Source of the DNA: an uncultured Sulfurovum sp.
Lineage (GTDB): Bacteria > Campylobacterota > Campylobacteria > Campylobacterales > Sulfurovaceae
DNA: 64,000 nt
Direction: 5' to 3'
Assembly: GCA_913055205.1 (NCBI GenBank)
Contig: CAJXJN010000011.1
Span: 1 to 64,000, forward strand
In this document: in pieces, positions 6,888 to 29,667 of the stretch
Layout of the letters: each line of letters opens with the position of its first letter
How positions within the stretch are numbered: the stretch's first letter is position 1
Notes under the pieces: generated by a model
The model's input: the letters and a program-made list of their open reading frames with translations, nothing else
Databases searched by the model: none
What the model was told of the DNA's origin: nothing
Made by a program: the position numbers and the translations under genes

Positions 6888-6918
6888 ACACAATACATGC
6901 ACACTTTCCTATTATAAT
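6888..6918 (+). promoter_or_regulatory. phased direct-repeat operator and -10, copy a
   Basis: ACACAATACAT (6888-6898) and GCACACTTTCC (6899-6909) are two 11-base half sites in tandem, followed directly by TATAAT (6913-6918). This is one of five such sites in the metal island (see copies b-e) and drives the small repeat protein at 6986. Confidence 0.6.
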
Positions 6919-6985
6919 TCACTTGTAATCAGGGTTTAACCTCATGGTTTTCCCTAAATTTTATTACAAATCCAAAGGATAGAAA

Positions 6986-7306
6986 ATGAAAAAATTAATT
7001 TTAGCAAGTATACTTTCAATGGGATTCGTATATGCAAATAAAGCGGAGGTTGAATTGGAACATGCATTAAAAACTGCACCAAGTATAGAAAGTCAGGCAG
7101 GTGATATGTCAAAAATGAAAGCTGCCGGTAAATGTAACGCAGATCAAAGCGGTAAAATAAAAGTAAAAGTAAACAAACCTGTAAAAGCTCCTACCAAAGG
7201 GGAAATTGAGTTGGAACATGCACTCAAAACAGCAACAGGTGATGACAGTATAGACGGTGATATGAAAAAAATGAAAGCTGCAGGTAAGTGTAACTCCGGC
7301 CAGTAA
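6986..7306 (+). CDS. secreted protein with two internal repeats
   Basis: A 106-aa protein with a signal peptide (1-17, cut after VYA). The mature part is essentially two copies of one unit: EVELEHALKTA...GDMSKMKAAGKCN (21-51) and EIELEHALKTA...GDMKKMKAAGKCN (73-103), joined by a Lys/Pro linker. Each unit ends with a single Cys (C50, C102) in a KMKAAGKC context. That resembles the M-K-C-x-P-G-K-C motif of other proteins in the island with the first Cys lost. I do not recognise the family. The shared operator and position next to the multicopper oxidase suggest a periplasmic metal-binding or stress role. Confidence 0.7.
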   Translation: MKKLILASILSMGFVYANKAEVELEHALKTAPSIESQAGDMSKMKAAGKCNADQSGKIKVKVNKPVKAPTKGEIELEHALKTATGDDSIDGDMKKMKAAGKCNSGQ

Positions 7307-7365
7307 ATACAAATTATGTGTATACTGGCAGCAGTATGCATTCTTTCATCATTACTCTCCTTCTT

Positions 7366-7397
7366 ACTCCCAAATACATTTTGGGAGTTCTTTTTTT
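7366..7397 (+). terminator. rho-independent terminator
   Basis: The stem ACTCCCAAA (7366-7374) / TTTGGGAGT (7380-7388) is followed by CTTTTTTT. It is well placed to end the transcript of the repeat protein. Confidence 0.85.
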
Positions 7398-7418
7398 ACT
7401 GAATATCCGATCAAACTT

Positions 7419-7520
7419 TTACAGATAGAGTCTAAATTCAGCCCCTTCATTTACAGCTGAATCCAGTTCAATCTTTATTCCATACTCATCGCAGATACTT
7501 TTAACCATAATTTTAAGCCT
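7419..7520 (-). pseudogene. sensor histidine kinase, C-terminal remnant
   Basis: On the minus strand, about 30 codons ending in TAA at 7419-7421 read LKIMVKSICDEYGIK, then IELDSAVNEGAEFRLYL. This matches the end of a HATPase_c domain, the GLxIVKxI helix and the last strand. In-frame TAG lies just upstream, and nothing more of the kinase is present. The fragment is reminiscent of the intact kinase at 20907-22100 (GLSIVKKITDEYNIQIEVES). It suggests that a two-component pair once stood beside the copper oxidase. Confidence 0.6.
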
Positions 7521-7549
7521 CTATGACATAGATAGTATGTATAGAATAT

Positions 7550-7590
7550 GCAGATATATGCACACTTCATACACGTTAACCCATTATCAT
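7550..7590 (+). promoter_or_regulatory. phased direct-repeat operator and -10, copy b
   Basis: GCAGATATAT (7550-7559), GCACACTTCAT (7560-7570) and ACACGTTAACC (7571-7581) are stacked at 11-base steps. TATCAT (7585-7590) is a likely -10 box. The spacing between CACACTT and the -10 (17 bases) equals that in copy e. Confidence 0.6.
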
Positions 7591-7618
7591 ACTTCAAACA
7601 GAAAAAGGCTTTAAGATA

Positions 7619-9031
7619 ATGAAACGTAGAGAATTTTTAGCACTTAGTAGTGTAGCTGCATTATGTATTGTTACAGGATGCGGAGGAGGCAACAGTTCAG
7701 TGTCTTCTGCTGGCATAAAATTAAAACCACTACCTATCCCTGAACTTTTAACCCCTACAGACAAACTAGGTGTAAAACATTATGATCTTACCGTACAAGA
7801 GGCAACACATGACTTCTTTAATGGAATTGCTACCCATACCTTTGCCATAAACAGTACCTACCTTGGACCTACTTTACTTATACAAAATGGTGACACAGTT
7901 TCCATCAATTATAAGAACACCCTTAATGAAGAGATAAGCATGCATGGTCATGGTATGCATTTACCACCATCAATGGATGGTACGGCACATCAGCCCATTG
8001 TTCCAGGAGAAACATGGTCTGCCACTTATACAGTCAATCAAAAAGCTTGTACAAACTGGTATCATCCTCATACTATGAACAAAACAGCAGAACACGTCTA
8101 TAAGGGTTTGGCAGGGCTCATCATCATAGAAGACAGTGAGAGTCAAAAACTAGACTTACCTAAACGATATGGTATTGATGACATTCCTCTAGTATTACAA
8201 GACAGAAATTTCAATAATGGTCAAATAGACTATGATCCAAGTATGATGGATATCATGCATGGATATAAAGGTAATACATTTATCGCAAATGGTGCCATAG
8301 AGCCAACCCTTGACGTAGAAAATAAAGAGATACGTTTCCGTATACTGAATGGATCAAACTCATCCATTTATGAACTTGGCTTTTCTGATGGGCGAACTTT
8401 TAAACAGATTGCTACAGACAATGCCTTTTTAGAAGCACCTGTAGAGATGACAAAACTCATACTTTCACCAGCTGAACGTGCGGAAATAGTGGTAGATTTC
8501 AGTACATCATTAAACCAAAAGATTGTTTTTAAAGAATTTAGAGAAAACAAAACATTTGTCACTGTTAATGTAAGCAAATCTGCAACTGTAACAACCATGC
8601 TGCCAAACAGCTTAACAAAACTTACAAAACTTGCCCCTTCTACAGCTGTAAGAACAAGATCATTCGTTCTCTCCGGTATGATGGGTAGCTTTGAGATCAA
8701 TGGCAAATCTATGGATATCAACCACATAGATGAAAATGTACCTCTAAATGATGTAGAAATTTGGGAGATCACCAATGATATGATGGTTGACCATAATTTT
8801 CACATTCACGCTACACACTTCATGATCATTGAGAGAAACGGTGGTACTGCAAATGTTGCACCCAATGAAAAAGGGTATAAAGATGTCGTCTACATTCCAG
8901 CCAATGAGAGCGTAAAGTTCATAGTAAAAATGGAGGATTACAGTGATAATACTGTGCCATATATGTACCACTGTCATTTCCTGGAACATGAGGATGCAGG
9001 AATGATGGGTCAATTTATAGTAACTGCATAA
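7619..9031 (+). CDS. multicopper oxidase, Tat/lipoprotein type
   Basis: A three-cupredoxin oxidase of 470 aa that probably oxidises Cu(I) in the periplasm. The leader has a Tat-like KRREFL motif and a lipobox (VTGC, C21). All four copper-ligand clusters are visible: HGHGMH (about 108), WYHPHT (about 147), HNFHIHATHF (about 391) and YHCHFLEHEDAGMMG (about 450), with Met as probable axial type-1 ligand. It is preceded by operator copy b and followed by a small membrane protein and a copB relic, the usual CopA/CopB company. CueO-like or CopA-like copper tolerance is the most likely role. Confidence 0.88.
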   Translation: MKRREFLALSSVAALCIVTGCGGGNSSVSSAGIKLKPLPIPELLTPTDKLGVKHYDLTVQEATHDFFNGIATHTFAINSTYLGPTLLIQNGDTVSINYKNTLNEEISMHGHGMHLPPSMDGTAHQPIVPGETWSATYTVNQKACTNWYHPHTMNKTAEHVYKGLAGLIIIEDSESQKLDLPKRYGIDDIPLVLQDRNFNNGQIDYDPSMMDIMHGYKGNTFIANGAIEPTLDVENKEIRFRILNGSNSSIYELGFSDGRTFKQIATDNAFLEAPVEMTKLILSPAERAEIVVDFSTSLNQKIVFKEFRENKTFVTVNVSKSATVTTMLPNSLTKLTKLAPSTAVRTRSFVLSGMMGSFEINGKSMDINHIDENVPLNDVEIWEITNDMMVDHNFHIHATHFMIIERNGGTANVAPNEKGYKDVVYIPANESVKFIVKMEDYSDNTVPYMYHCHFLEHEDAGMMGQFIVTA

Positions 9032-9088
9032 AGAGACACCATGATCTATACAACATAACATTTAGACATAAAACATGTTAGCATAGTT

Positions 9089-9121
9089 ACACATTATATA
9101 CACACTTCAGATGTAAACTAT
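9089..9121 (+). promoter_or_regulatory. phased direct-repeat operator, copy c
   Basis: ACACATTATAT (9089-9099) and ACACACTTCAG (9100-9110) are followed by ATGTAAACTAT. The first 20 bases differ from copy e by one base. It lies 30 bases before the 36-aa protein gene; TATATA/TATAAC at 9121-9128 may serve as -10. Confidence 0.55.
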
Positions 9122-9150
9122 ATATAACAAAACATCAAAAAGGATTCAAA

Positions 9151-9261
9151 ATGAATAACATCGAACATGGCTTTGGTATGGCATTTGGCGGGTGGTTGAT
9201 ACCACTTTTAATCATAGGTCTTCTTTTCTATTTTTTTCAAAAAAAAGGAAATACTAAATAG
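9151..9261 (+). CDS. 36-aa single-pass membrane protein
   Basis: ATG at 9151 with AAGGA upstream opens 36 codons. The product has a short N-terminus (MNNIEHGFGMAFGGW), one transmembrane helix (LIPLLIIGLLFYFF) and a basic tail (QKKGNTK). The shape resembles the small SHOCT-like or copper-cluster membrane peptides found next to multicopper oxidases. It has its own copy of the island operator, which supports it being a real gene. No known family is assigned. Confidence 0.6.
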   Translation: MNNIEHGFGMAFGGWLIPLLIIGLLFYFFQKKGNTK

Positions 9262-9265
9262 TTAG

Positions 9266-9465
9266 CCCAAGATATCCTTGATAGACGATATGCAATTAGG
9301 CTCCGGACTCTCATCCATAGAAGCAGGCTTGCGTTTACGCTACGAGTTCATTCGTGAATTTGCGCCTATGTAGGAGTTACATAGGAGAATACCTTTGGAG
9401 ATACAAGAGATTATAATCCGGTCAATGAAATGTCACTGCTTGTAGATATACGTTTTTGGTTTTAA
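9266..9465 (+). pseudogene. copB: copB copper resistance protein B, C-terminal remnant
   Basis: From 9266 the frame reads LGSGLSSIEAGLRLRY, then EFIREFAP, the conserved end of the CopB/PcoB outer-membrane protein. After FAP the frame must shift by one base to continue as YVGVT-stop-ENTFGDTRDYNPVNEMS and LLVDIRFWF with TAA at 9463-9465. The gene thus has one frameshift, one in-frame TAG where CopB has a Trp or similar residue, and no 5' part. The stop of the 36-aa gene is 4 bases upstream, so the 5' two thirds were deleted. Confidence 0.72.
9367..9385. repeat. short inverted repeat inside copB relic
   Basis: CTATGTA GGAGT TACATAG is a 7-bp stem lying over the frameshift/stop region of the copB remnant. 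Confidence 0.3.
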
Positions 9466-9496
9466 TATGAATTTTTTGAGAACTTCTTTCCCTCAA

Positions 9497-9519
9497 CCTT
9501 CCCGACCCGGCCGGGAAGG
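9497..9519 (+). terminator. GC-rich hairpin after copB relic
   Basis: CCTTCCCG (9497-9504) pairs with CGGGAAGG (9512-9519). There is no U-tract. It may be the old terminator of the oxidase-copB operon. Confidence 0.4.
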
Positions 9520-9599
9520 CAGTAATAAATCTCCCCCCTTCAATAACACAAATTGACAATTTCATCTTGCAATATATATACTCCATTTAATCAACTTCT

Positions 9600-9628
9600 A
9601 CACACATTTTACACACGAGAGGTATAAA
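9600..9628 (+). promoter_or_regulatory. phased direct-repeat operator and -10, copy d
   Basis: ACACACATTTT (9600-9610) and ACACACGAGAG (9611-9621) repeat at 11 bases, with TATAAA at 9623-9628 as -10. It drives the periplasmic protein gene at 9697. A tiny open frame (9629-9652) follows, probably by chance. Confidence 0.55.
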
Positions 9629-9696
9629 ATGAAAATGAGTCGAATACTCTAAATGTGGTATTCTAGAAAAAAGACAACAAAAAGAAAGGATCAGTT

Positions 9697-10143
9697 ATGC
9701 TATTTAAAAAAATATTTATTTTTTTGTTTTTTATTTTTAGCACAAATTTTGTAATGGCTGAACATGCACAACGTCATCAAACGGTTGATGGGTTAAGTAT
9801 TTATTTTGGTGCCATTCCGGCACAACTTATAGGCGGACATGGTTCAATGCACCGTACCAGAGGTATGAAACATGGAAAACATACTTATCATATGCTTGTT
9901 GCCATATTTGACAACAATTCGGAAAAACGCATCACCGATGCCATGGTCAAAGCCACTGTAACATCTTTAAATACAAAAAGAGAGACCAAAAGACTTGAAC
10001 CTATGCATGGCGATCTAGTAAGTTATGGAAATTTCTTTGAGCTGACGGAAACGACACCCTATACAATAAGAGTTGAAATACAACGCCCGGACAGTGGAAA
10101 AAAATCCATTGCCGAATTTACGTTTACGAGACCACGGAATTAA
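9697..10143 (+). CDS. periplasmic His/Met-rich protein
   Basis: A 148-aa protein with a signal peptide (cut near VMA, residue 21), then a beta-rich domain. Residues about 45-67 are rich in His and Met (GGHGSMHRTRGMKHGKHTYHM), a plausible Cu or other metal site. The protein resembles conserved proteobacterial periplasmic proteins of the pattern DGL-IYFGxxPAxLI...YHMLVAxFD, for which I know no assigned function. An AAAGGA ribosome site is well placed. Its own operator copy ties it to the metal regulon. Confidence 0.75.
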   Translation: MLFKKIFIFLFFIFSTNFVMAEHAQRHQTVDGLSIYFGAIPAQLIGGHGSMHRTRGMKHGKHTYHMLVAIFDNNSEKRITDAMVKATVTSLNTKRETKRLEPMHGDLVSYGNFFELTETTPYTIRVEIQRPDSGKKSIAEFTFTRPRN

Positions 10144-10304
10144 AGTACGTTCATTATCGTATTATCATAAATCAGAACGGGAAGCTGACATGAACAGCGA
10201 AACAAAAAGTATGCATTCGGGTCTCCTCATTCTCCTCGTTCCCATGTACAACGTATGTATAGCCAAGAGAGATGTAACGAGAGAAGATCCTAACAATATT
10301 TCAG

Positions 10305-10317
10305 TATAATCCCATTA
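10305..10317 (+). promoter_or_regulatory. -10 box of an apparently leaderless hrpB transcript
   Basis: TATAAT at 10305-10310 ends seven bases before the hrpB ATG (10317), and no ribosome binding site lies between. Transcription would begin at or next to the start codon. No clear -35 was seen. Confidence 0.4.
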
Positions 10318-12824
10318 TGCAAACCCTACCCATCACCCAAGTCATCCCCGAAGTCAAAGAGAAACTGCAGAGCCATACCCGTCTCGTACTCCAGGCACCT
10401 CCGGGAGCAGGAAAAACCACAGCTTTACCTCTGGCACTCTTAGATGAGCCTTGGTTGGAGGGCAGGAAGATACTCATGCTTGAGCCCAGACGTTTGGCTG
10501 TGCGTGCTTCGGCTGCCCGGATGGCTGAGATGTTGGGCAAAAAAGATGGAAAAGATGAGAAAGTGGGAGAACGCATAGGGTATCAGATAAAGATGGAATC
10601 TGTGCAGAGTAAGCAGACCCAGATACTCATCGTCACTGAGGGCATCTTGACGCGTAAGCTTCAGCATGATCCCAGCCTGGAAGATGTGGCTCTCATCATT
10701 TTCGATGAGTTTCATGAACGCTCTTTACATGCGGACTTGTCTTTAGCCTTGGCATTGGAGTCTCAGGCTGTGTTGCGTGAGGATTTGAAGATACTCATCA
10801 TGTCTGCTACGCTGAACACTTCTGCCATCTCTACGCTCTTAAATGATGCACCCGTCATCCAAAGTGAGGGGCGTGCTTTTCCTGTGAAGCGTCACTACCT
10901 CCCTGCCCACACCCCGGCACCAAGCAAAAAAGAGTTACCCACTTTTGTGCATAGACTCCTGCACAAGCTTCTGGCAGAAGAAGAAGGAAACATACTTGTA
11001 TTTCTCTCAGGCATAAGAGAGATAAAGGCTGTGGAGAAGCTTTTGAACAGTAGAAAACCAAAAGACGTCTACATCTCCACCCTCTACGGAAACCTAAGCA
11101 AAGAAGCCCAGGACAAAGCCATCAAAGCACCGCCCGAAGGCTCGCGAAAAATGGTACTGAGTACGAACATCGCACAAACCTCTCTCACCATAGAAGGCAT
11201 TAAGATAGTCGTGGACTCCGGGCTTCAAAATGTCTCTGTCTTTAACCCCTTTTCAGGCATGAACAAGCTAGAGAGCCAGTTCATCTCCCAAGACTCTGCC
11301 ACACAAAGAGCAGGACGTGCAGGACGTTTGAGCGCAGGGAAAGCCTACCACCTCTGGCACAAAAGCAAGATACTTTTAACACACGACACCCCGGAGATCC
11401 TCCTGGCAGACCTTAGCCCTATGCTGCTGGACCTTGCACTGTGGGGTAACGACGACATAGAGAGCCTCTCATGGATGGACACCCCACCCAGCTCTGCCGT
11501 CAAACATGCCAAAGAACTCCTGGCACAACTCGGAGCTGTAGATGAGAAGGGTATCATCACCGCACATGGCAAGCAGATGAACCGTTTTGGTCTGCACCCC
11601 CGTTTGGCACATATGATGCTTAAAGCCAAAGCATTGGGGCTTAGCTACGAAGCTTCCCTGCTGGCGGTACTGCTCTCAGAAAAAGAGATCTACCGTAACG
11701 CTTTTGGTTATGCAGACCTGCGTGAACGCGTTATGGTCTTGCATGATGTCGCACAAAATGTAAAGGTAGACAGCAGCCTCATAAACCTCAAACAGTGCCA
11801 GTACCTCCTACGCCTTGCCAAGCGCATAGAACCTGTACAAAGTGCGGAGATAAACAGAGAAATGCTAGGCGTACTCCTGGCCTTTGCCTACCCTGACCGC
11901 ATCGCCAGACAACGGGACGAAAAGGCAGGCTCCTACCTGCTCTCCAATGCCAAAGGTGCGGTACTCCACAGAGCAGATGAGCTTTTTCACTCACGCTTTT
12001 TGGTCATTGCTGACCTTGATGCACGAAGCAAAGAAGCCAGCATCTACAAAGCCATAGAACTCACCCAGGCACAGATAGAAGAGCACCTTCAAGAGCAGAT
12101 AGCCGTGAAAGATCAAGTCCTTTGGAATGACGCACAGAAAAGAGTAGAAGTCAAAAAAGTACATAAGCTGGGTGCCATTCTGCTCCGAGAAACACAGATC
12201 ACCAACACTAAAAACCCTGAAGTGTTAGAGGTGTTACTGGATGAGTTGGAGGCGTTAGGCTTAGAGGCATTGGCATGGAATAAAGAGGCCAAACAGCTTA
12301 AAGATAGAGTGACTTTTCTGAACCATCACGGCATGGATCTCCCTGACTTTTCAGAAGAGTATTTGGAAGAAAACATGGACGAGTGGTTAGCCCCCTATCT
12401 CACCAATGTCACCTCACTCAAAGCCTGCCAAAACCTAAACTTCACGCAAATTCTTTTAGGCTTGCTAAGCTTCGAACAGACCCAAGCCCTGGACACCCTG
12501 GCACCCACAAAACTCAAAGTTGCCAGCGGTTCACACATACCCATAGACTACACCAACCCGGCTCAACCCGTCCTGGCGGTACGTCTGCAAGAGATGTTCG
12601 GTACCAGGCAAACACCCGCGGTACTGGGCGGAAAAGTAAAACTCATGATCCACCTACTCTCCCCAGCCTCACGTCCCATGCAAGTCACCCAAGACCTGGA
12701 GAGCTTTTGGGCGAACACTTATGATGAAGTGAAAAAAGAGTTGAGAGGAAAGTACAAAAAGCATTATTGGCCGGATGACCCTTTGGCAGCACAGGCTACT
12801 TCTAGGACAAAGAAGTTTATGTAA
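10317..12824 (+). CDS. hrpB: ATP-dependent helicase HrpB
   Basis: A DEAH-box helicase of 835 aa. Walker A is APPGAGKTT (K33), the DEFH box sits near residue 128, and SATLN follows (motif III). The QRAGRAGR motif VI and the C-terminal HrpB region (SGSHIPIDY, FGTRQTPAV...HLLSP, FWANTYDEVKKELRGKYKKHYWPDDP) are complete. The cellular role of HrpB is poorly defined. Its codon use looks more GC-rich than the genes around it, and it interrupts the metal island, which may mean acquisition or a separate insertion. Confidence 0.93.
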   Translation: MQTLPITQVIPEVKEKLQSHTRLVLQAPPGAGKTTALPLALLDEPWLEGRKILMLEPRRLAVRASAARMAEMLGKKDGKDEKVGERIGYQIKMESVQSKQTQILIVTEGILTRKLQHDPSLEDVALIIFDEFHERSLHADLSLALALESQAVLREDLKILIMSATLNTSAISTLLNDAPVIQSEGRAFPVKRHYLPAHTPAPSKKELPTFVHRLLHKLLAEEEGNILVFLSGIREIKAVEKLLNSRKPKDVYISTLYGNLSKEAQDKAIKAPPEGSRKMVLSTNIAQTSLTIEGIKIVVDSGLQNVSVFNPFSGMNKLESQFISQDSATQRAGRAGRLSAGKAYHLWHKSKILLTHDTPEILLADLSPMLLDLALWGNDDIESLSWMDTPPSSAVKHAKELLAQLGAVDEKGIITAHGKQMNRFGLHPRLAHMMLKAKALGLSYEASLLAVLLSEKEIYRNAFGYADLRERVMVLHDVAQNVKVDSSLINLKQCQYLLRLAKRIEPVQSAEINREMLGVLLAFAYPDRIARQRDEKAGSYLLSNAKGAVLHRADELFHSRFLVIADLDARSKEASIYKAIELTQAQIEEHLQEQIAVKDQVLWNDAQKRVEVKKVHKLGAILLRETQITNTKNPEVLEVLLDELEALGLEALAWNKEAKQLKDRVTFLNHHGMDLPDFSEEYLEENMDEWLAPYLTNVTSLKACQNLNFTQILLGLLSFEQTQALDTLAPTKLKVASGSHIPIDYTNPAQPVLAVRLQEMFGTRQTPAVLGGKVKLMIHLLSPASRPMQVTQDLESFWANTYDEVKKELRGKYKKHYWPDDPLAAQATSRTKKFM

Positions 12825-12891
12825 AAATGTTTGATATACTCTTTATGCTGAAATATCATAATAGGAGGACACTTTGTTCCTCTAATAAATA

Positions 12892-12924
12892 GTTGCACGT
12901 TCCCGTGGAGCGGAAAGGTGCAAC
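12892..12924. repeat. inverted repeat GTTGCAC...GTGCAAC
   Basis: A 7-bp stem (12892-12898 / 12918-12924). The following GC-rich stretch also contains GTGGAGCGGA and TCCGCTCC, which can pair. It lies between hrpB and the efflux operon and looks like a small dispersed palindrome rather than a gene. Confidence 0.35.
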
Positions 12925-13041
12925 AGGCGCGCTGATCACTGAACGTGACCTTCTGCCATCTGCCGGTCTCCGCTCCGCTACAACCAACAAATGACAGGAT
13001 TTCCCTCGTCCCCAAGCTTGTATAACCAAGAGACATCATTT

Positions 13042-13083
13042 ACACATTATATGCACACTTCTTACACACAATTAAGATAGAAT
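13042..13083 (+). promoter_or_regulatory. phased direct-repeat operator and -10, copy e
   Basis: This is the clearest copy: ACACATTATAT (13042-13052), GCACACTTCTT (13053-13063) and ACACACAATTA (13064-13074) repeat with an 11-base period. TAGAAT (13078-13083) is a likely -10. It drives the CusCBA-type efflux operon. Confidence 0.65.
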
Positions 13084-13113: not shown

Positions 13114-14307
13114 ATGCGTATCTTTCTCTCTCTTTTACTTACATTGGGACTGCTTCAGGCACAGAGTATCGATCAGCTTGTCGGACAGTCACTTAAGAAA
13201 CACCCTTCACTCAAAACCATACAACATCGGCTCTCTGCTATGGATGAGCGTATAGCAAAAAGTCAAAAGTGGGCAAACCCTGACCTTTCACTGACGATCA
13301 ATGACATACAATTCCGTAAACCTTTTGACCGTTCTTTGGAACGGATGCAATATCATGCCATAAACTTCAAACAGAAGTTTCCCTGGTTTGGAAAACTTGC
13401 TGCAAGAAAAACCTATGCCCTGGAACAAAAATATGTTGTTCTGGATTCCTACCAGGCAGCAAGGGTACAGCTGGCTCTACAAATCAGAATTACAGCCTAC
13501 ACGATTAAAGAGCTTGAAGCCCGTATCACTATTTTACGTAAATATATACAACTGGCAAAACAGAACATCAAACTCTATACAGATACTATTTCCACGAACG
13601 GTATGAGCCATGCAGACAGTATTAGTGCAGAGCTTTCACTCTCTAAAATAGAGATACGTCAGGAGCATTACAGATCACTGCTTAGATCTCAAAAAGAAAA
13701 ACTCTCTTATTTGGTACAACAAAGAGTTACAACCATCAAGGACAAACTGCGTATGCAAAAACCAGGTTCCCTCCAAAGATATCTTGCCAAACGCTCAAAT
13801 AATCCTACCTATCGTATGAAACTTTCACAGAATAGAGCTGCAGGTGCAAACAAAACACTTGTTGATATGGAAATACACCCTGACCCTTATGTCAAAGTCG
13901 GATATTTCAATCGTCCTGATTTTCCTGACTATGCTTCCGTGACAGTAGGTCTCTCTCTGCCACTCTACGGTACGGAAAAACTCAACTCGGAAATAGCCAG
14001 GAAAGAAGCACTTTCAAGTATGAGTGATTCCCTGGATTACAAAGTATTTTTAGAGAGTGAAATACGTGCGAACTATGCGAAACTGAAAGAGGCGTACCAT
14101 ATTTACAACATTATACAGAACAAAAGCCTTCCACAGTTGGGACATATGCTTGAACTAAGCTCTTCTGCCATTGAAGAGGGTGCAGATCTTTTTACCTATA
14201 CCAACATACTTGAACAGAAACTGGCACTGGAAGAGGAGAGCATCGCTGTCAAAGCGGAGTTTCTACGTACAAAAGCCAAACTTAAAGCACTTACAGGAGA
14301 AATATAA
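13114..14307 (+). CDS. TolC-family outer membrane efflux protein (CusC-like)
   Basis: A 397-aa outer-membrane channel subunit with signal peptide (1-17, LLQA). Long alpha-helical segments contain the TolC-type repeats (HPSLKTIQHRLSAMDERIAKSQKWANPDLSLTIND and its second-half partner DPYVKVGYFNRPDFPDYASVTVGLSLPL, quoted here as two landmarks in the N- and C-terminal halves, residues about 30 and 250). It is the first gene of a three-gene efflux operon; its stop overlaps the next ATG by one base. The family pairing with a heavy-metal RND pump suggests Cu(I)/Ag(I) export. Confidence 0.85.
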   Translation: MRIFLSLLLTLGLLQAQSIDQLVGQSLKKHPSLKTIQHRLSAMDERIAKSQKWANPDLSLTINDIQFRKPFDRSLERMQYHAINFKQKFPWFGKLAARKTYALEQKYVVLDSYQAARVQLALQIRITAYTIKELEARITILRKYIQLAKQNIKLYTDTISTNGMSHADSISAELSLSKIEIRQEHYRSLLRSQKEKLSYLVQQRVTTIKDKLRMQKPGSLQRYLAKRSNNPTYRMKLSQNRAAGANKTLVDMEIHPDPYVKVGYFNRPDFPDYASVTVGLSLPLYGTEKLNSEIARKEALSSMSDSLDYKVFLESEIRANYAKLKEAYHIYNIIQNKSLPQLGHMLELSSSAIEEGADLFTYTNILEQKLALEEESIAVKAEFLRTKAKLKALTGEI

Positions 14308-15416
14308 TGTACAGATACACCATCATTTTATTATTCATCTTTATCACGACTGCCCAGGCAGAAATGAAATGTGAAGCAGGGAAATGCAGTACGGGGAAAG
14401 AGACAACTACAAAAGAGGTCGTAAAAAAAGAACCTGTCAAAAGTACTATCGAAAAACCCAAAAGAGAACATACACCTACCATTGAACAGCTTTTCAATGT
14501 CAGAACGGTAAAAGTGACCACTCAAAAGAGTGCACACAAGCAGACAAACTACGGATACATCGTAGCAGAGGACTCTCTTAAAACAGATGTAGTTGCATGG
14601 TATTCCGGATTTGTCGAAAGTCTCTATGCCGATACACTGTACAAAAAAGTCACGAAAGGGGAAACATTGGCAAAAGTCTACTCTCCTGAAGTCTATAAAG
14701 CAAAACAGAATTATTTGAATTCGATCAGATTTCATGCCAAACGTTCCTCTCCTGCTATGGTAAAAAGTGCAAGGATCAAACTTGAACTTCTTAATGTAAG
14801 TTCCCAGGAGATCGACCGTATCAACCAAACGCAAAAAGTTGAAAAATACACCAGCATCATCGCCCCTGTCTCTGGCTGGATATTTGAAAAGAATATCAAT
14901 CAGGGTTCCTCTTTCAGCAGTAAGAAAAAACTTTTCCAGATCGTTAGTTTGAAGAAGGTCTGGATGGAGGTAAAACTTTATCAAAATGAGTTGGAAAAAC
15001 TAAACGCTTTTAAGGATTTCACAGTAAAAGTAAAAGGAATCAACCACACATTTAAAGCCGCCAGATCTCTACTCTACCCTATGCTCGATCCAAAAGAGGC
15101 AACAGCTACATTACGTTTAGAGTTAGATAACCATGAAGGGCTCTTGAAACCGGGAATGTATGCAAAAGTATATGCTTCTGCCGGTACAGCTTCCCATCTT
15201 GTCATCCCTCGTACTGCTGCCATGCGTAAAAACGGTACCTGGTATGCCTTTCTTGCTACAGAGTTTAAAGGCGAGTATGAACCGATACAGATCGAAGTCA
15301 AACCACTTGACAATACCTATTTTGAACTCTTATCGGGTCTAAATGAAGGTGATACTATCGTAAATAATGCACTCTTTATGATGGACTCAGATGCCCAGAT
15401 CAACAGTATATATTAG
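14307..15416 (+). CDS. cusB: heavy-metal efflux periplasmic adaptor (CusB-like)
   Basis: A membrane fusion protein of 369 aa. The signal peptide is cut after AQA (18), so the mature protein begins with EMKCEAGKC, placing C22 and C27 at its N-terminus. E. coli CusB uses a Met-based copper site in the same place; here a Cys pair could serve. Downstream are the barrel-sandwich hybrid (VAWYSGFVESLYA..., YTSIIAPVSGWIFEKN) and beta-barrel (LVIPRTAAMRKNGTWYAFL). It starts one base inside the TolC-like gene and is 9 bases from the pump gene. Confidence 0.87.
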   Translation: MYRYTIILLFIFITTAQAEMKCEAGKCSTGKETTTKEVVKKEPVKSTIEKPKREHTPTIEQLFNVRTVKVTTQKSAHKQTNYGYIVAEDSLKTDVVAWYSGFVESLYADTLYKKVTKGETLAKVYSPEVYKAKQNYLNSIRFHAKRSSPAMVKSARIKLELLNVSSQEIDRINQTQKVEKYTSIIAPVSGWIFEKNINQGSSFSSKKKLFQIVSLKKVWMEVKLYQNELEKLNAFKDFTVKVKGINHTFKAARSLLYPMLDPKEATATLRLELDNHEGLLKPGMYAKVYASAGTASHLVIPRTAAMRKNGTWYAFLATEFKGEYEPIQIEVKPLDNTYFELLSGLNEGDTIVNNALFMMDSDAQINSIY

Positions 15417-15425
15417 GAAATTGGT

Positions 15426-18400
15426 ATGATTGAAAAATTAATATCCTTTAGTGTTAAGAACCGTTTTTTAGTCCTCATGGCTACCCTCTTCATCATTTTG
15501 GGATCTATCTGGTCTATGAGGAATACTCCTTTGGATGCCCTGCCTGACCTCTCACCTCCTCAGGTCATCGTACAGGTGACATGGAAGGGACAGAGTCCGG
15601 AGATCATTGAAGACCAGGGAACATACCCTTTGGTTTCACAATTTCTGGCTATCTCGAACATTGAAACTGTACGCGGTTTTTCTACCTATGAAAATGCTCT
15701 GATCTACATCATCTTTAAAGAAGATACTGATCTTTACTGGGCACGTTCCCGTGTACTTGAACAACTGGCATCTATTCAAAGTCAACTTCCTGATAACATG
15801 GAGGTTGCTCTTGGTCCGGATGCTTCCGGTGTAGGCTGGGCATTTGAATATGCATTGACATCCAAGACCAAAACACTGGATGAACTGCGTACTCTGCAGG
15901 ACTACTACTACAAATATGCATTGATGGGTGTAGATGGAGTAAGTGAAGTGGCAAGCATTGGTGGGTTCGTACCTACATACCAGATCACTGTAAACAACGA
16001 TGCACTGGTACAATACAACCTTTCTATCAAAGATATCTCTAAAACACTTAAGGACAATAACAATGACACAGGCGGCCGGATCGTTATTCAAAATGGGTAC
16101 GAGTGGATGGTACAAGCCAAAGGATACATCAAGGACCTGGATGAGATACGTGATCTTGTCATCACTACTAAAGACGGTGTACCTCTTACGCTTTCCCAGG
16201 TAGGCCGTGTAGAGATGGTACCCGCTGCAAGAAGAGGTATGGCAGACCTCAATGGTGAGGGAGAAGTCGTCGGCGGTATAGTCATGGTACGGTATGGTGA
16301 AGATGTCTATGGTGCACTTGAACGTATCAATGCAAAAATGAAAGAACTCAAAGTAGAAGGGGTGGATGTCATTACCACCTATGACCGTTCAAGCCTCATT
16401 GACAAAGCTATTGATACACTCAAGACCACATTGGTAGAAGAGAGTATCATCGTTGTCATCATCATCGGACTTTTTTTACTCCACTTACGCTCTTCGCTCA
16501 TCGTACTTATCGTTCTGCCTCTTACCATAGGTTTGACTTTTTTACTGATGAAACTCTTTGGTATAGGCTCCAACATCATGAGTCTGGGAGGGATAGCCAT
16601 TGCCATCGGTGCCATGGTAGATGCCTCCATCGTCATGATAGAAAATGCACATAAAGCCATCCATAAACTGGAGCACAAACAGGGTAGAACGCTTACAGAC
16701 CAGGAACGTATCGCCAGCATCGTCAAAGCTTCACAGGTCGTAGGCCGCCCTATCTTTTTTGCTCTGGCTTTGGTGGTTGTCTCTTTTCTACCTATCTTTG
16801 CACTTTCAGGACAGGAAGGGCTTCTCTTTACACCTCTGGCATTCACTAAAACCTTTGCGATGACAGCAGGGGCACTTCTGGCAGTGACGCTTGTACCTGT
16901 ATTGATGATCTATTTTGTAAAAGGAAAGATCATCCCCGAATCGAAAAATCCACTGAATCGTTTCTTTATCTGGCTCTATCACCCTATTTTGGTGTATGGA
17001 TTAAAACTCAAATATCTGGTAATCGCACTTGCAATCGGCGTACTTGTTTTTATGGTACCGCTTTACCAAAAGCTCAACTGGGAATTCATGCCTATGCTCA
17101 ATGAACAGAGTGTGATGTATATGCCTGTTACCCCGTATGGTATCTCTGTGGACCAAAGTAAGGCACTCACTCAGAAAACCGATAAGATCATTAAGAGTTT
17201 TCCCGAAGTAGCTACCGTCTTTGGAAAAGGAGGCCGTGCAAACACTGCGACTGACCCTGCTCCACTGGGGATGCTGGAGACCATCATCACTTTTAAGCCA
17301 AAAAGTGAGTGGAGAGAAGGTATGACACATGAAAAACTTATGGCAGAGATGGAAAAAGCTTTGCAGGTACCGGGTCTTGTAAACTCATGGACCTACCCTA
17401 TACGCGGGCGTATCGATATGTTGCTCTCCGGTATCCGTACCCCTATAGGGATCAAACTCTATGGAAAAGATGCTAAGGGTCTGCAGGAAGTAGCACAAAA
17501 GATAGAAAGCAGACTTCGTGACCTTAAAAGTACACAATCCGTCTTCTCAGATCAGGCAAGTGCAGGATTTTTTATAGATATAGATATTGATACAGAAGCC
17601 CTCAAACGTTACGGTATCAGCAAGAACCTCATACAGGAGTACACTTCTACTGCTATAGGTGGTAAGAAGATCACTACCATGTACAAAGGTTTGGAGCGTT
17701 ACCCTATCGCCCTTCGTTTTGAAGAGGAGGAGCGGCGTAACCTTGATGATATCCGTAATATACAGGTCAAGACCCCTCTTGGTTTTGTTCCCCTTTCTAC
17801 TTTTGCAAAGGTGGAGTACCGTGAAAGTGCCTCTGTCATAAAGAGTGAAATGGCTACCCCGGTAACCTTTGTCTATATTACACCACAACCAAGTATAAGT
17901 GCCACAAAATACAAGGAAGAAGCTACACAAGCACTTAAAGATATTCAGCTTCCTGCCGGATATTACATCGAGTGGGCAGGACAGACAGAATATTTAGAAT
18001 CTGCCATGAAAAAGATAAAATGGATCATCCCGACTGTACTGTTGGTTATCTTGGTACTCATCTATTTTGCATTAGGAAAGATGATACCTACACTCATCGT
18101 TTTCTTTACACTGCCGTTTGCCCTGTTGGGTGGACTTATCTACATAGATATGCTGCAGTTCAACATGAGTATAGCAGTGATAGTGGGCTTTTTGGCCTTG
18201 CTGGGTGTTGCCGCAGAAACAGCCATAGTCATGATCGTATACTTGCAGGAGAGTGTAGAAGAGATGCGTGAGAAAATGGGAGAGAAGTTTGATAAAACAG
18301 ATCTTTCTGATGCTATTTATGAAGGTGCTGTACAAAGAGTACGACCAAAACTCATGACAGTCTTTGCCATTTTGGCAGGGCTTCTTCCTATTATGTACAC

Positions 18401-18542
18401 AACAGGTGTAGGATCTGAAGTCATGCAGCGTATTGCAGCACCAATGATAGGAGGAGTCGTAAGTTCAGCCATATTAAGTCTGCTACTGATACCTATCTTT
18501 TATGAGATCTATGAGAAAAAACAGTTGAAGAAAAAAAGATAA
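15426..18542 (+). CDS. cusA: heavy-metal RND efflux pump (CusA/CzcA family)
   Basis: A 1038-aa inner-membrane proton/metal antiporter with 12 expected transmembrane segments. It has the first segment at about 10-30, the N-terminal porter signature PLDALPDLSPPQVIVQV (34-50), the TM4 signature AIAIGAMVDASIVMIENAHK and a Met-rich second periplasmic half (MLNEQSVMYMPV). The HME subfamily is clear. Choice of copper or silver over zinc or cobalt rests on neighbours (multicopper oxidase, copB relic). It closes the operon begun at 13114. Confidence 0.93.
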   Translation: MIEKLISFSVKNRFLVLMATLFIILGSIWSMRNTPLDALPDLSPPQVIVQVTWKGQSPEIIEDQGTYPLVSQFLAISNIETVRGFSTYENALIYIIFKEDTDLYWARSRVLEQLASIQSQLPDNMEVALGPDASGVGWAFEYALTSKTKTLDELRTLQDYYYKYALMGVDGVSEVASIGGFVPTYQITVNNDALVQYNLSIKDISKTLKDNNNDTGGRIVIQNGYEWMVQAKGYIKDLDEIRDLVITTKDGVPLTLSQVGRVEMVPAARRGMADLNGEGEVVGGIVMVRYGEDVYGALERINAKMKELKVEGVDVITTYDRSSLIDKAIDTLKTTLVEESIIVVIIIGLFLLHLRSSLIVLIVLPLTIGLTFLLMKLFGIGSNIMSLGGIAIAIGAMVDASIVMIENAHKAIHKLEHKQGRTLTDQERIASIVKASQVVGRPIFFALALVVVSFLPIFALSGQEGLLFTPLAFTKTFAMTAGALLAVTLVPVLMIYFVKGKIIPESKNPLNRFFIWLYHPILVYGLKLKYLVIALAIGVLVFMVPLYQKLNWEFMPMLNEQSVMYMPVTPYGISVDQSKALTQKTDKIIKSFPEVATVFGKGGRANTATDPAPLGMLETIITFKPKSEWREGMTHEKLMAEMEKALQVPGLVNSWTYPIRGRIDMLLSGIRTPIGIKLYGKDAKGLQEVAQKIESRLRDLKSTQSVFSDQASAGFFIDIDIDTEALKRYGISKNLIQEYTSTAIGGKKITTMYKGLERYPIALRFEEEERRNLDDIRNIQVKTPLGFVPLSTFAKVEYRESASVIKSEMATPVTFVYITPQPSISATKYKEEATQALKDIQLPAGYYIEWAGQTEYLESAMKKIKWIIPTVLLVILVLIYFALGKMIPTLIVFFTLPFALLGGLIYIDMLQFNMSIAVIVGFLALLGVAAETAIVMIVYLQESVEEMREKMGEKFDKTDLSDAIYEGAVQRVRPKLMTVFAILAGLLPIMYTTGVGSEVMQRIAAPMIGGVVSSAILSLLLIPIFYEIYEKKQLKKKR

Positions 18543-18682: not shown

Positions 18683-18734
18683 ATGACAAGAATTAAAATT
18701 CAGTGCAAGCGAGGCACTAAATGCTGAGTCGTAA
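18683..18734 (+). promoter_or_regulatory. leader shared with uvrA, including ribosome site
   Basis: About 50 of 57 bases, from ATGACAAGAA through GAGGCACTAAATG and on to GTAAAA, match the uvrA leader (63263-63316, minus strand). It contains the GAGG ribosome site and start codon of the lipoprotein and an overlapping 14-codon frame (18683-18727). Confidence 0.55.
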
Positions 18735-19113
18735 AATAAAAACAAAACTTCTATCACTATCACTACTTACCATCACTCTTCTTCTAACCGGCTGTAGCGA
18801 CAAAGAGAAAACAAAATCCATCACAGAAGGCGGCATGAAATGTGGTCCAGGCAAATGTGGTGCAAGTATGGTCGATGGTTCTGCCGTACTGGTAAAAAAG
18901 AAAATGAATATTTTAAACCAGCTAAAAGAGGATGACAACAGACGGGACTGTGTACTTAAAGCAACAACAACAAAGGCTCTTTATAACTGTGTACGTGTAG
19001 AAAAAACCGGAAGGCTCAGTACAAAATGTTCAAGTGACAATACCAAGCAAGCACCTAAAAAAGAGGTATCAACTATGAAATGTGCTCCGGGTAAATGTGG
19101 AAATGGCATGTAA
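18721..19113 (+). CDS. lipoprotein with two MKCxPGKCG motifs
   Basis: A 130-aa lipoprotein (lipobox LTGC, C25). Right after the anchor is M39-K-C-G-P-G-K-C-G47, and the C-terminus carries a second copy, M119-K-C-A-P-G-K-C-G127. Three more cysteines (C77, C90, C103) lie between, in a region that looks like a small c-domain or linker. I know no family name. Two Cys pairs on a membrane-tethered periplasmic protein next to a copper pump suggest Cu(I) or other soft-metal binding. GAGG lies 7 bases before the ATG, inside a leader shared with uvrA. Confidence 0.75.
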   Translation: MLSRKIKTKLLSLSLLTITLLLTGCSDKEKTKSITEGGMKCGPGKCGASMVDGSAVLVKKKMNILNQLKEDDNRRDCVLKATTTKALYNCVRVEKTGRLSTKCSSDNTKQAPKKEVSTMKCAPGKCGNGM

Positions 19114-19594: not shown

Positions 19595-19909
19595 TTAACA
19601 ACTTGGTACGTTACCTGAATCAGATGCATACTCATGCGCGAAATCGTAAATATGAGGAACATATTTCTCTTTTAGTTTTACACCCGGGCAGATCTTTGCA
19701 GCTTCTTCAGCAAATTTACCTGCACCATTGATTTTTTCCCACTCATCCTGTGTATGTTTTGCAGCAAATTTAGCACCGGAGAAACCACATACAGCTTTCA
19801 TTTTCTTCATATAAAGTTTTTGGCCTTTTTTTACATCTGCAGAAGCAGTAGTTGAAAGTACAGCCAGTCCAAGTAAAGCAGAAACTGCTATTTTAGTCAT
19901 TTTAGTCAT
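19595..19909 (-). CDS. CGFSG/HTQDEWE periplasmic protein, paralogue 1
   Basis: A 104-aa exported protein (signal peptide cut near ASA, 24). The core is KKGQKLYMKKMKAVCGFSG, then FAAKHTQDEWE, an ICP cysteine and a C-terminal YASDSGNVPSC. Related proteins in this phylum are often called cytochrome c-like, but no CxxCH is present, so haem attachment is not supported. Three conserved Cys and one His could bind metal or form disulfides. It is a clear paralogue of the next gene and lies in the metal island. Confidence 0.72.
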   Translation of the reverse strand: MTKMTKIAVSALLGLAVLSTTASADVKKGQKLYMKKMKAVCGFSGAKFAAKHTQDEWEKINGAGKFAEEAAKICPGVKLKEKYVPHIYDFAHEYASDSGNVPSC

Positions 19910-19984
19910 TTAATATCCTTTTGATTTTAAGATGAGAGATGATAACATGAAATTGTGAAAAGATTGTGAAAAGATTGTGAATAA

Positions 19985-20812: not shown

Positions 20813-20910
20813 AGTTAACGGTTTTGCCTCCACGGCTACACTCCGTTCCGACCGTTCCGGTTCCGAACCTACAAACGTGAAGCAGTTCACGTTTACTTAA
20901 CGGTTCTCAC
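20813..20910. repeat. inserted palindrome-rich segment with flanking direct repeats
   Basis: TTAGTTAACGGTT and TTACTTAACGGTT flank a GC-richer segment of about 75 bases with CGTTCCGACCGTTCCGG and the palindrome ACGTGAA-GCAG-TTCACGT (20872-20889). It sits between the stop of the histidine kinase gene and the cytochrome, and looks like a small inserted element. Confidence 0.35.
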
Positions 20911-22100
20911 CATTTTAACACCACCTTTGTTCCTTCTCCTTCTTTTGACTCTACTTCTATCTGTATATTATATTCATCAGTGATCTTTTTAACGATACTT
21001 AAGCCTATACCAAAGCCACCTTCGCTTTTATTAAATCTCATATAACGATCAAACATAAATGGTATCTTCTCTTCTGCTATTCCGATCCCTGTATCCCATA
21101 TCATCAACATATTTTGACGCAGCTTTATACCTACTATACCTCCACGTTTGTTATATTTGATCGCATTGGATATAAGATTGTCGATCACACGGGTGAACTT
21201 TTGTTTATCTGCTGTTATTGTTGTATTTTCCAAATCTAAATGATATTCCAACTGCTTGGATTCGGCTAAAATAGAAAAATATTCTGCTCTGTCCCGCAAG
21301 AGGGTTTGAAGCGCTATACTTTCATCTTCATTCTCTTTCTCCTGCTCCAGGGTCAGATAGGTCAGATCCTTATAAAGTGTCGAAACTGTTTTGGCTGCAA
21401 TATTGATACGTGTCAATTTTTTCTTATTCTTCTCTACCATGACATCTGTATCCATCATCTCTATGTTGGCAAGTATCGCTGAAAGAGGCGTATTGAGTTC
21501 ATGGGTCGTATCTTTGATGAACCTGTCAAGCAGCATGATCGAGTCACGCATAGGTTTCAGAAAGAGTTTTGCGAGTAAAAGACCGAATACCATAAAAAGA
21601 AAAAATGCAATAAGACCATAACCTGCAATATGTTTCCATATCTCTTCACGCCATACTCCGTCATCTTCCACTTCTATAATAAGATATTTGGTACCCAAAT
21701 AGTATGTATCCAATGTTTTTACAAAATGTATATATTTTTTACTTTTTGTAATATATATCTCTTCATCAAAATGTATATGTTCATCTTCTAATAAAGAAAA
21801 GATCTTCATGAACTCTATATCATAAATCGCGGATCTGAATCGCGGATCACGAGGATACGTATTTCTCTCAGGAAAAAAGTAATGCAGTACTTTAAGTCTT
21901 TTTGTCTGTATATAAGCATATTTTGAAAGTGCCGCACGCTGCTCTGCCAACATTAATTTCTCTTGACTCTGATAGTAAAAAGCCGAAAGCAGAGAGATCA
22001 TAAGAATGACCATCGCTACATAAAGTGTTAAAAATCTAAGAAGGGATTTCTTTTCACTTTTCAGTAATGAATTTGTAACCTTGCTTTTTGATACTAACAA
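20907..22100 (-). CDS. sensor histidine kinase
   Basis: A membrane kinase of 397 aa. It has TM1 at about 23-42, a periplasmic loop of about 115 residues and TM2 at about 160-180. The phospho-acceptor is H200 in THELNTPLSAIL, and the ATPase domain shows NLISNAIKYN, DTGIGI and GFGIGLSIV. The sensor loop has no recognised domain and few His, Cys or Met residues. Its start overlaps the response regulator gene by 47 bases, typical of a co-transcribed pair. Its place at the end of the metal island suggests it controls the phased operators; this is inference. Confidence 0.88.
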   Translation of the reverse strand: MLVSKSKVTNSLLKSEKKSLLRFLTLYVAMVILMISLLSAFYYQSQEKLMLAEQRAALSKYAYIQTKRLKVLHYFFPERNTYPRDPRFRSAIYDIEFMKIFSLLEDEHIHFDEEIYITKSKKYIHFVKTLDTYYLGTKYLIIEVEDDGVWREEIWKHIAGYGLIAFFLFMVFGLLLAKLFLKPMRDSIMLLDRFIKDTTHELNTPLSAILANIEMMDTDVMVEKNKKKLTRINIAAKTVSTLYKDLTYLTLEQEKENEDESIALQTLLRDRAEYFSILAESKQLEYHLDLENTTITADKQKFTRVIDNLISNAIKYNKRGGIVGIKLRQNMLMIWDTGIGIAEEKIPFMFDRYMRFNKSEGGFGIGLSIVKKITDEYNIQIEVESKEGEGTKVVLKW

Positions 22101-22725
22101 TTCTTTCCTTACCTATGATCTTACGAAGATTTTTGATATAGGTACGCAGTGCTGAGTCGCTAGGCTCCTCATCAAAATCCCATAAATGTTTATAAATACG
22201 TTCGTGTGCAATGACCTCTCCCTCTCTTTTCATGAAAAGATTCAAGAGTCTTGACTCTTTATTGCCTAATGGAACACTTTTCCCATCAATGATCAGTTCA
22301 CTGTTTTTAATATCATAAGCGATATTTTCAGCGATCTGTATCAACTCTTTATTTTCATGGAAAAAACCTCTTTTAAGCAGTGTCTCTACACGTATATGTA
22401 ATTCTTTAAGTACGAAAGGTTTACGGATATAGTCATCACAACCGCTCTCGAACCCTTTTTCCAGGTCATCTACAGAATCCATGGAAGTAATATAGATTGC
22501 AGGAGCAACAACCCCTTCCTCCCTGCTCTCTTTAAGCAGATCGAAACCATTGATACCAGGTGTATTTACATCCAGAAGAAGCAGATCATATTTACTCTCA
22601 TACAGTTTATCCTGTGCTTCGTGCCCATCATACACACTGACTACTTCATAGCCCTTTTCTTCAAGAAATTCTGTCACTGTTTCATTCAGATTTGCATCAT
22701 CTTCCAATAATAATATTTTACTCAT
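22054..22725 (-). CDS. OmpR-family response regulator
   Basis: A 223-aa regulator. The receiver domain (1-120) has the acid pair D9-D10, phospho-acceptor D52 (LLLLDVNTPG) and K102 near RKP. The C-terminal winged helix shows LGNKESRLLNLFM, DEEPSDSALRTYIKNLRKIIG and KKQGYKF. OmpR-type regulators bind direct repeats with a 10-11 base period, which is the form of the five operator copies in this island. It is cotranscribed with the kinase; trxC lies 9 bases upstream on the same strand. Confidence 0.9.
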   Translation of the reverse strand: MSKILLLEDDANLNETVTEFLEEKGYEVVSVYDGHEAQDKLYESKYDLLLLDVNTPGINGFDLLKESREEGVVAPAIYITSMDSVDDLEKGFESGCDDYIRKPFVLKELHIRVETLLKRGFFHENKELIQIAENIAYDIKNSELIIDGKSVPLGNKESRLLNLFMKREGEVIAHERIYKHLWDFDEEPSDSALRTYIKNLRKIIGKERIVSIKKQGYKFITEK

Positions 22726-28881: not shown

Positions 28882-29667
28882 ATGAACAATATCGATCTTG
28901 TCATCATCCTTAGTACTGCTTTTTTAGGCAGCGTAGGACACTGCATTGGGATGTGTGGAGGCATTGTCGTAGCCTATAGCTCTACAAAAATCGACCAGAC
29001 TTCATCATGGACACGACAAACCATCTCTCATCTTGCCTATAACTTTGGGCGTGTAATGACCTACACTATCTTGGGTGCCATGTTTGGTCTTCTGGGCAAA
29101 GCCATTGCCTTTACCCCTACAACAAAAGGTGTGCTTTTTGTACTTACAGGTATTTTGATGATCTTGGCAGGATCATCCCTTATAGGTAATCTCAAGTTTC
29201 TCAACTCTGCAGAGTGGTCTGTCTCCAAAAACAGCTGGTACCAAAACAGTTTTAGAAAACTCATTAGCAGCAAATCACTGCAAAGCTTCTTTCTGCTTGG
29301 TATGCTTAACGGTATCATCCCCTGTGGTCTTGTCTACTCTTTTGCTATTTTTGCAGCAAGTACGGCAAGCCCGTTATGGGGAGCTATTGTTATGGCAACC
29401 TTTGGATTGGCCACCATTCCTGCCCTTTTCTTTTTAGGTACCATTACCAGATTCTTGCAAAAAGGATCTCTTCGGGGAACCATGATGAAACTCGCTGCCA
29501 TGCTTGTTATCTTTTACGGGTTCTACACGCTTTACAAAGGGTATAAGTTCATCGCTCACCCTAAAGAGACACAAGAGATGATAGACAGTATGCAAACAGG
29601 AAGCATCAAGAGTAAACTGGAAGGCAAATGTGGAGGCATGAAGTGTGCTCCCGGAAAATGTGGTTAA
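28882..29667 (+). CDS. UreH/TauE-like membrane protein with C-terminal MKCAPGKCG
   Basis: A 261-aa polytopic membrane protein of the DsbD-like/UreH_2 type. Its first helix carries GHCIGMCGG (C21, C25), the Cys pair typical of family members linked to cytochrome oxidase copper loading or cytochrome biogenesis. Six helices are visible. The C-terminus ends GKCGGMKCAPGKCG, four Cys in 13 residues, the same motif as in the 18721 lipoprotein and the CusB-like protein. This suggests metal capture or handover at the membrane. It stands alone on the plus strand. Confidence 0.78.
   Translation: MNNIDLVIILSTAFLGSVGHCIGMCGGIVVAYSSTKIDQTSSWTRQTISHLAYNFGRVMTYTILGAMFGLLGKAIAFTPTTKGVLFVLTGILMILAGSSLIGNLKFLNSAEWSVSKNSWYQNSFRKLISSKSLQSFFLLGMLNGIIPCGLVYSFAIFAASTASPLWGAIVMATFGLATIPALFFLGTITRFLQKGSLRGTMMKLAAMLVIFYGFYTLYKGYKFIAHPKETQEMIDSMQTGSIKSKLEGKCGGMKCAPGKCG

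Follow-up and report, generated by a model that had tools for sequence, protein, structure and literature searches.

The copper island and its promoters

The stretch of DNA analyzed here (the window) comprises 64,000 nucleotides of an uncultured Sulfurovum sp. (contig CAJXJN010000011.1, which is contig 11 of the 1.66-Mb assembly GCA_913055205.1). It carries an island of metal-handling genes encoding a 106-amino-acid (aa) repeat protein, a multicopper oxidase (MCO), a His/Met-rich protein and a CusCBA pump, together with a 36-aa open reading frame (ORF) and, on the opposite strand, the OmpR-family response regulator RR1 with its histidine kinase HK1 (Table 1). The pump was assigned as a CusCBA heavy-metal RND system, as it scored 1035.6 bits against the CusA/CzcA model TIGR00914 (cut-off 701.45). 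Five promoters of the island, designated a to e, share a tandem repeat which is the subject of this analysis, along with the question of which regulator reads it.

A preliminary description of this DNA had listed eleven half sites of the form RCACAnTT, stacked in tandem at exactly 11 bases. All eleven coordinates were found to be correct, and each of the five promoters does carry two half sites (three in e) at exactly this spacing, with b lying one mismatch off. The reported identity of copies c and e at 19 of 20 bases and the 17-base gap from CACACTT to the -10 box in b and e were likewise reproduced. Of the half site itself, the RCACA part held, whereas the nTT part is not conserved and was discarded; the doubled RCACAnTT form is nowhere matched exactly in the window. 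The base preceding the half site is T in 94-100% of boxes, and since this T emerged without being part of the search pattern, the real unit is the hexamer TRCACA, repeated after a 5-bp spacer.

The pattern RCACA-N6-RCACA occurs five times on the plus strand of the window, always within the four exact promoters, with two of the five in e, but not at all on the minus strand; dinucleotide shuffles gave means of 0.30 and 0.21, respectively. Promoter b departs from it by one base, its second half site being ACACG. In the spacing spectrum 11 bp alone stands out. A further feature, absent from the preliminary description, is that the last half site is followed after exactly 9 bases by a TANNNT -10 box in all five promoters. 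The resulting composite (RCACAN6RCACAN9TANNNT) is present in four exact copies plus b at one mismatch, compared to 0.003 (plus) and 0.007 (minus) in shuffles of the window. Moreover, a matrix trained only on the cusC boxes of ten relatives, with the window excluded, placed the five sites at ranks 1-5 among the ~128,000 positions of both window strands, and the second register of e at rank 6. OmpR/PhoB class-II boxes are characterized by half sites stacked in tandem at one helical turn (11 bp) and by a fixed place just upstream of the -10 box, where they replace the -35 element; both properties were found in the five sites and in relatives.

Table 1. Features of the island and of the linked locus on contig 18 (window coordinates unless a locus or contig is named).
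Feature	Position	Strand	Description	Remarks
Box a	6888..6918	+	ACACA-N6-GCACA-N9-TATAAT; -10 at 6913-6918	Exact composite; matrix rank 5
Box a target	6986-7306		106-aa repeat protein	Relatives' rep-family genes likewise box-preceded
Box b	7560..7590	+	GCACA-N6-ACACG-N9-TATCAT; -10 at 7585-7590	One mismatch; matrix rank 4
Box b target	7619-9031		Multicopper oxidase	ATG 28 nucleotides downstream of box
Box c	9089..9119	+	ACACA-N6-ACACA-N9-TAAACT; -10 at 9114-9119	Exact; matrix rank 3; promoter of truncated SHOCT-domain gene
36-aa ORF	9151..9261	+	Truncated SHOCT-domain membrane protein; in-frame TAG, then remnant LAQDILDRRYA	Translation compared with intact 68-70 aa homologues
Remnant	9262..9466	+	SHOCT tail and C-terminus of CopB-like outer-membrane protein, shifted frames	Read by eye
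Box d	9600..9630	+	ACACA-N6-ACACA-N9-TAAAAT; -10 at 9625-9630	Exact; matrix rank 2
Box d target	9697-10143		His/Met-rich protein	HisMet orthologues in L072 and L185 also box-preceded
Box e	13042..13083	+	Half sites at 13042, 13053 and 13064, the last N9 before TAGAAT; -10 at 13078-13083	Exact; matrix rank 1
Box e target	13114-18542		cusCBA	Box kept before relatives' cusC
Sister-box target	19595-19909		104-aa cytochrome-like protein	Adjoins RR1
Sister box	19939..19970	-	TTCACA-N5-TTCACA-N9-TATCAT; third TTCACA 11 bp upstream, to 19981	Kept in relatives
HK1	20907..22100	-	Histidine kinase, partner of RR1	Pfam HisKA and HATPase_c
RR1	22054..22725	-	OmpR-family response regulator	Pfam receiver and Trans_reg_C; recognition helix; box linkage
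RR2	L082:11211-11864, about G000:C18:23210-23863		Response regulator	Contig 18, source genome
HK2	L082:11857-13014		Kinase paired with RR2	Contig 18, source genome

Distribution of the box in Sulfurovum

Across 41 Sulfurovum genomes the composite was matched 221 times, compared to 16 times for a reversed control, and it was found in the orthologous cusC promoters of most relatives examined. In the relatives' cus loci the commonest spacing of half-site pairs is 11 bp (26 pairs, all other spacings having 7 or fewer) and the commonest distance to TANNNT is 9 (21, the next being 5). The -10 box typically lies 26-37 nucleotides ahead of the cusC start. Within the order, a few genera carry the composite often, and in most it is rare or lacking; 0 or 1 match was obtained from the other genera sampled in the same family.

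In the loci that were retrieved, 113 distinct boxes were counted, of which at least 49 precede a member of a query family, a lower bound because the copA query has an over-long start. These are distributed among cusC (13), MCO (9), SHOCT (6), HisMet (6), rep (6), DUF302 (4), a second response regulator, RR2 (3), and copA (2). The genes following a box include cusC, copper ATPases with YHS and heavy-metal-binding domains, two types of multicopper oxidase, small SHOCT proteins, His/Met proteins, repeat proteins, DUF302 proteins and RR2 itself. Boxes thus stand before several independent copper-handling families, and the recognized targets are largely copper genes (cusC, the copper ATPase, the multicopper oxidases, the His/Met protein and the repeat protein). 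Since relatives carry the box before the same gene families, the earlier proposal of an OmpR/PhoB-type direct-repeat box that unites the named genes in one metal regulon, here copper/silver, is upheld. Some targets have no evident link to copper, for example a DsbD-like protein and a haem-binding protein.

Some matches lie in coding sequence or are ambiguous and are not to be taken as regulon members, for example that in G034:C4, inside an aspartokinase-like frame, and the repeated GCACA...CAGATAGG words. Among other box-bearing loci, two near-identical genes for a 228-aa secreted or outer-membrane-like protein lie about 930 bp apart in the source genome (G000:C5:31861 and 32792; L083 and L084), each carrying a box of a different flavour (GCACATCTTTGGCACAT...). 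A near-identical composite box was found in two genomes (L199 at G003:C2:285571, and G027:C6:210745); in G003 it stands ahead of a grpE-like gene, so this type of box may be linked to heat shock. In L227 (G019:C56) a divergent pair of boxes about 10 bp apart separates RR2 from a repeat-protein gene, forming a compact two-way copper promoter.

RR2/HK2 as the candidate reader

The best single candidate for reading the box in the source genome is most likely RR2, which is encoded on contig 18 rather than in the island. There, a box heads an operon composed of a copper ATPase (YHS, heavy-metal type), RR2, its kinase HK2 and an SO_0444 Cu/Zn exporter, and a divergent box precedes an MCO gene and a CopB-like gene. 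Full-length matches to OmpR-family profiles and alignment with RR1 identify RR2 as an OmpR/PhoB-type protein with receiver and Trans_reg_C domains. It was found in 19 of the 41 genomes, and RR1 in 36. An exact or near box lies directly ahead of RR2, or before or at the start of a copA gene ahead of RR2, in 15 genomes (G000, G002, G003, G005, G009, G012, G013, G014, G015, G016, G018, G019, G024, G028, and G062). Longer stretches showed that, wherever the upstream region was readable, RR2 mostly follows a box, either immediately or with copA in between; the apparent loss of RR2 in G008 and G022, where copA runs into the contig end, was discounted as evidence. In G062, RR2/HK2 adjoin a HisMet gene and cusC-cusA, with near-boxes present. 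A scan in which the last half site was allowed to vary by one base revealed a TRCACA-type box within 1.5 kb in 8 of 20 RR2 loci, versus none of 34 RR1 loci, each from a different genome.

The boxes with their geometry, conservation and target genes were observed directly, as was the position of RR2 within box-headed operons. On this basis it is proposed, with a probability of about two in three, that the five sites serve as activator boxes for an OmpR-family regulator responsive to copper or silver, with RR2/HK2 as the most likely reader. Binding, activation, the metal signal and the choice of RR2 over a paralogue are inferences. Genomes with RR2 carry a median of 6 boxes versus 3 in those without (p = 0.0008; p = 0.006 for genomes at least 90% complete), and the presence of RR1 shows no link to box number (p = 0.40), although these p-values are optimistic because the tests treat genomes as independent despite their shared ancestry. 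Further points also weigh against RR2. At the cut-off used, RR2 is missing from G020 (100% complete) and G029 (99%), both of which keep the cusC box, and G027 (14 boxes), G001 and G060 have boxes without RR2, partly before genes with no evident copper link. Moreover, the recognition helices of RR1, RR2 and two further paralogues, encoded on contigs 24 and 29, closely resemble one another, so cross-binding is possible, and the source genome is an 86%-complete assembly in 47 contigs. As some genomes without RR2 keep TRCACA boxes, RR2 may not be the only reader and the code may be shared.

RR1 and a sister box

The nearest relatives of RR1 are proteins of Sulfurovum, a genus of the order Campylobacterales in the Campylobacterota. 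Close to its gene, a 104-aa cytochrome-like protein gene is preceded by a box of the same layout built on TTCACA. The exact TTCACA composite was found in 34 of the 41 genomes, with few control matches, and comparison of positions by hand showed that, of the 36 genomes with RR1, 29 have the box no farther than 3 kb from this regulator. In a separate collection of 80 RR1 loci, partly overlapping the 41 genomes, the 104-aa gene is present in 52, of which 36 have an exact TTCACA box no more than 150 bp upstream of the gene. On inspection, most of the remaining 16 were found to have a TTCACA box one or two bases off. The 80 loci gave no TTCACA match on the opposite strand and none for the control, and TRCACA boxes were present in only five of them. 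For the regulators of the contig-24 and contig-29 types, a scan of up to 1.5 kb revealed no TANNNT-linked box of either kind.

These observations suggest that RR1 most likely reads TTCACA and not TRCACA. There is perhaps an even chance that the two boxes are sister codes, in which two paralogous two-component systems would use an identical geometry (hexamer, 5 bp, hexamer, 9 bp, -10) and half sites differing by essentially one base, TRCACA belonging to copper and RR2, and TTCACA to a cytochrome/thioredoxin-linked system and RR1. If true, the RR1 and RR2 pathways would be kept apart by a single base pair, even though the recognition helices that read it are much alike.

Alternative readers

One alternative is that several OmpR paralogues (RR1, RR2 and the regulators of contigs 24 and 29) read TRCACA as a clade-wide code, their specificity depending on the spacer or on the kinase that is active. 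The near-identical recognition helices of the four paralogues are consistent with this, as are the boxes before non-metal genes and in genomes lacking RR2, and a minority flavour of the box in which G precedes the second half site (for example TTGGCACA and TTGACACA). However, a distinct conserved box is already associated with RR1, and for the contig-24 and contig-29 types the 1.5-kb scan found no TANNNT-linked box; a shared code is considered unlikely.

A second alternative was put forward in the preliminary description, which named the island's own regulator, RR1, as the reader of the five boxes. RR1 does lie on the same contig, is kept behind cusCBA in many relatives and has a recognition helix resembling that of RR2; in G020 and G029, moreover, it is present together with the cusC box in the absence of RR2. 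However, nearly all relatives have a TTCACA box beside RR1, even genomes with neither a TRCACA box nor a CusA orthologue (RR1 occurs in such genomes as G006 and G017), and the 1.5-kb scan that linked TRCACA to RR2 found no TRCACA box near RR1. Conversely, TRCACA boxes are kept without RR1 in G019, G028 and G063; in G019 and G063, which also have no TTCACA box, they lie beside RR2, and G019 keeps one at cusC. The assignment to RR1 was demoted on these grounds and is now considered quite improbable. Finally, although single CACA-rich words are common, the idea that the boxes are a product of chance or a general promoter feature of AT-rich intergenic DNA is contradicted by the control and shuffle counts, the out-of-sample ranking and the conservation before orthologous genes, and is scarcely credible.

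Proposed mechanism

With RR2 as the reader, two regulator subunits (three at e) would bind head to tail on the TRCACA half sites, one helical turn apart and thus along one side of the helix. Lying 9 bases ahead of the -10 box, the last half site occupies the -35 position; therefore the bound regulator would replace the -35 contact and recruit RNA polymerase (class-II activation). HK2 is predicted to sense periplasmic copper or silver and to phosphorylate RR2, which would then turn on the ATPase, the exporter, the multicopper oxidases, the repeat protein, the His/Met protein and CusCBA. Since RR2 is located inside a box-headed operon, it would also activate its own synthesis.

A decayed operon behind box c

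The 36-aa peptide, treated in the preliminary description as a gene in its own right, is a truncated relic of a SHOCT-domain protein. Downstream of its stop codon, MQLGSGLSSIEAGLRLRYEFIREFAP and ENTFGDTRDYN...FWF were recognized as CopB-like by visual comparison with the C-terminus of L082:6175-6855. In relatives the box precedes intact SHOCT, MCO2 and CopB genes. Judging from these remnants, positions 9151-9466 are read as what is left of a SHOCT-MCO-CopB operon that has decayed but has kept its promoter box c intact. Elsewhere in the window, two proteins (18721-19113 and 28882-29667) share the motif MKC(A/G)PGKCG; one lies near the copper island and the other is a DsbD_2-type membrane protein, and the motif may be a metal-binding tag common to both.

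Relation to known systems

The CusRS, CopRS and SilRS systems (TIGR01387, TIGR01386) similarly control Cus-type efflux, copper ATPases and multicopper oxidases. However, neither RR1 (126 bits) nor RR2 (87 bits) reached the cut-off of 279 bits of the CopR/CusR/SilR model TIGR01387, and the CusR site of E. coli is an inverted repeat. The DccRS system of Campylobacter jejuni reportedly uses an 11-bp direct repeat, wTTCAC-N6-TTCACw, which would be very like the RR1-linked TTCACA box. In the parts of the literature available to the search, no description of a DccR direct repeat, of a TTCAC box for a copper or DccR system in Campylobacter or of a response-regulator binding site for Sulfurovum was found.

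In the same phylum, CrdRS of Helicobacter pylori (HP1365/HP1364) is also an OmpR-type two-component system for copper homeostasis (PMC9449129); no binding site for it was found in the literature examined. The closest layout is that of the OmpR-family regulator HP1043/HsrA of H. pylori, whose box consists of two TTTAAG hexamers in direct orientation, separated by a 5-bp spacer so that their centres are 11 bp apart, which overlaps the promoter in place of the -35 element (PMC5253667), and which acts as an activator (PMC8345958). This arrangement equals that of the TRCACA box, but the hexamer differs, and HP1043 is an essential orphan regulator of housekeeping genes, not metals. Another OmpR-family regulator of the Campylobacterota, PceP/RR2 of Sulfurospirillum, has CTATA repeats with 6-nucleotide gaps and thus the same 11-bp period, in three copies at pceAB that overlap the -35 element; the promoter region of the operon encoding its own two-component system is a further binding target (PMC7755780). 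It differs in its sequence (CTATW), in the proposal of its authors that copies 17 bp apart are bound, and in its signal, tetrachloroethene (PMC7755780). The architecture of an OmpR-type class-II promoter code is therefore known, whereas the sequence, the regulon and the sister code are apparently new.

Significance

For Sulfurovum, which is common at metal-rich hydrothermal vents, the TRCACA box provides a sharp and testable code for the promoters of copper defence. The analysis also corrects the assignment of the regulator, and the pair of near-identical codes offers a natural case for studying how paralogous response regulators stay insulated from one another.

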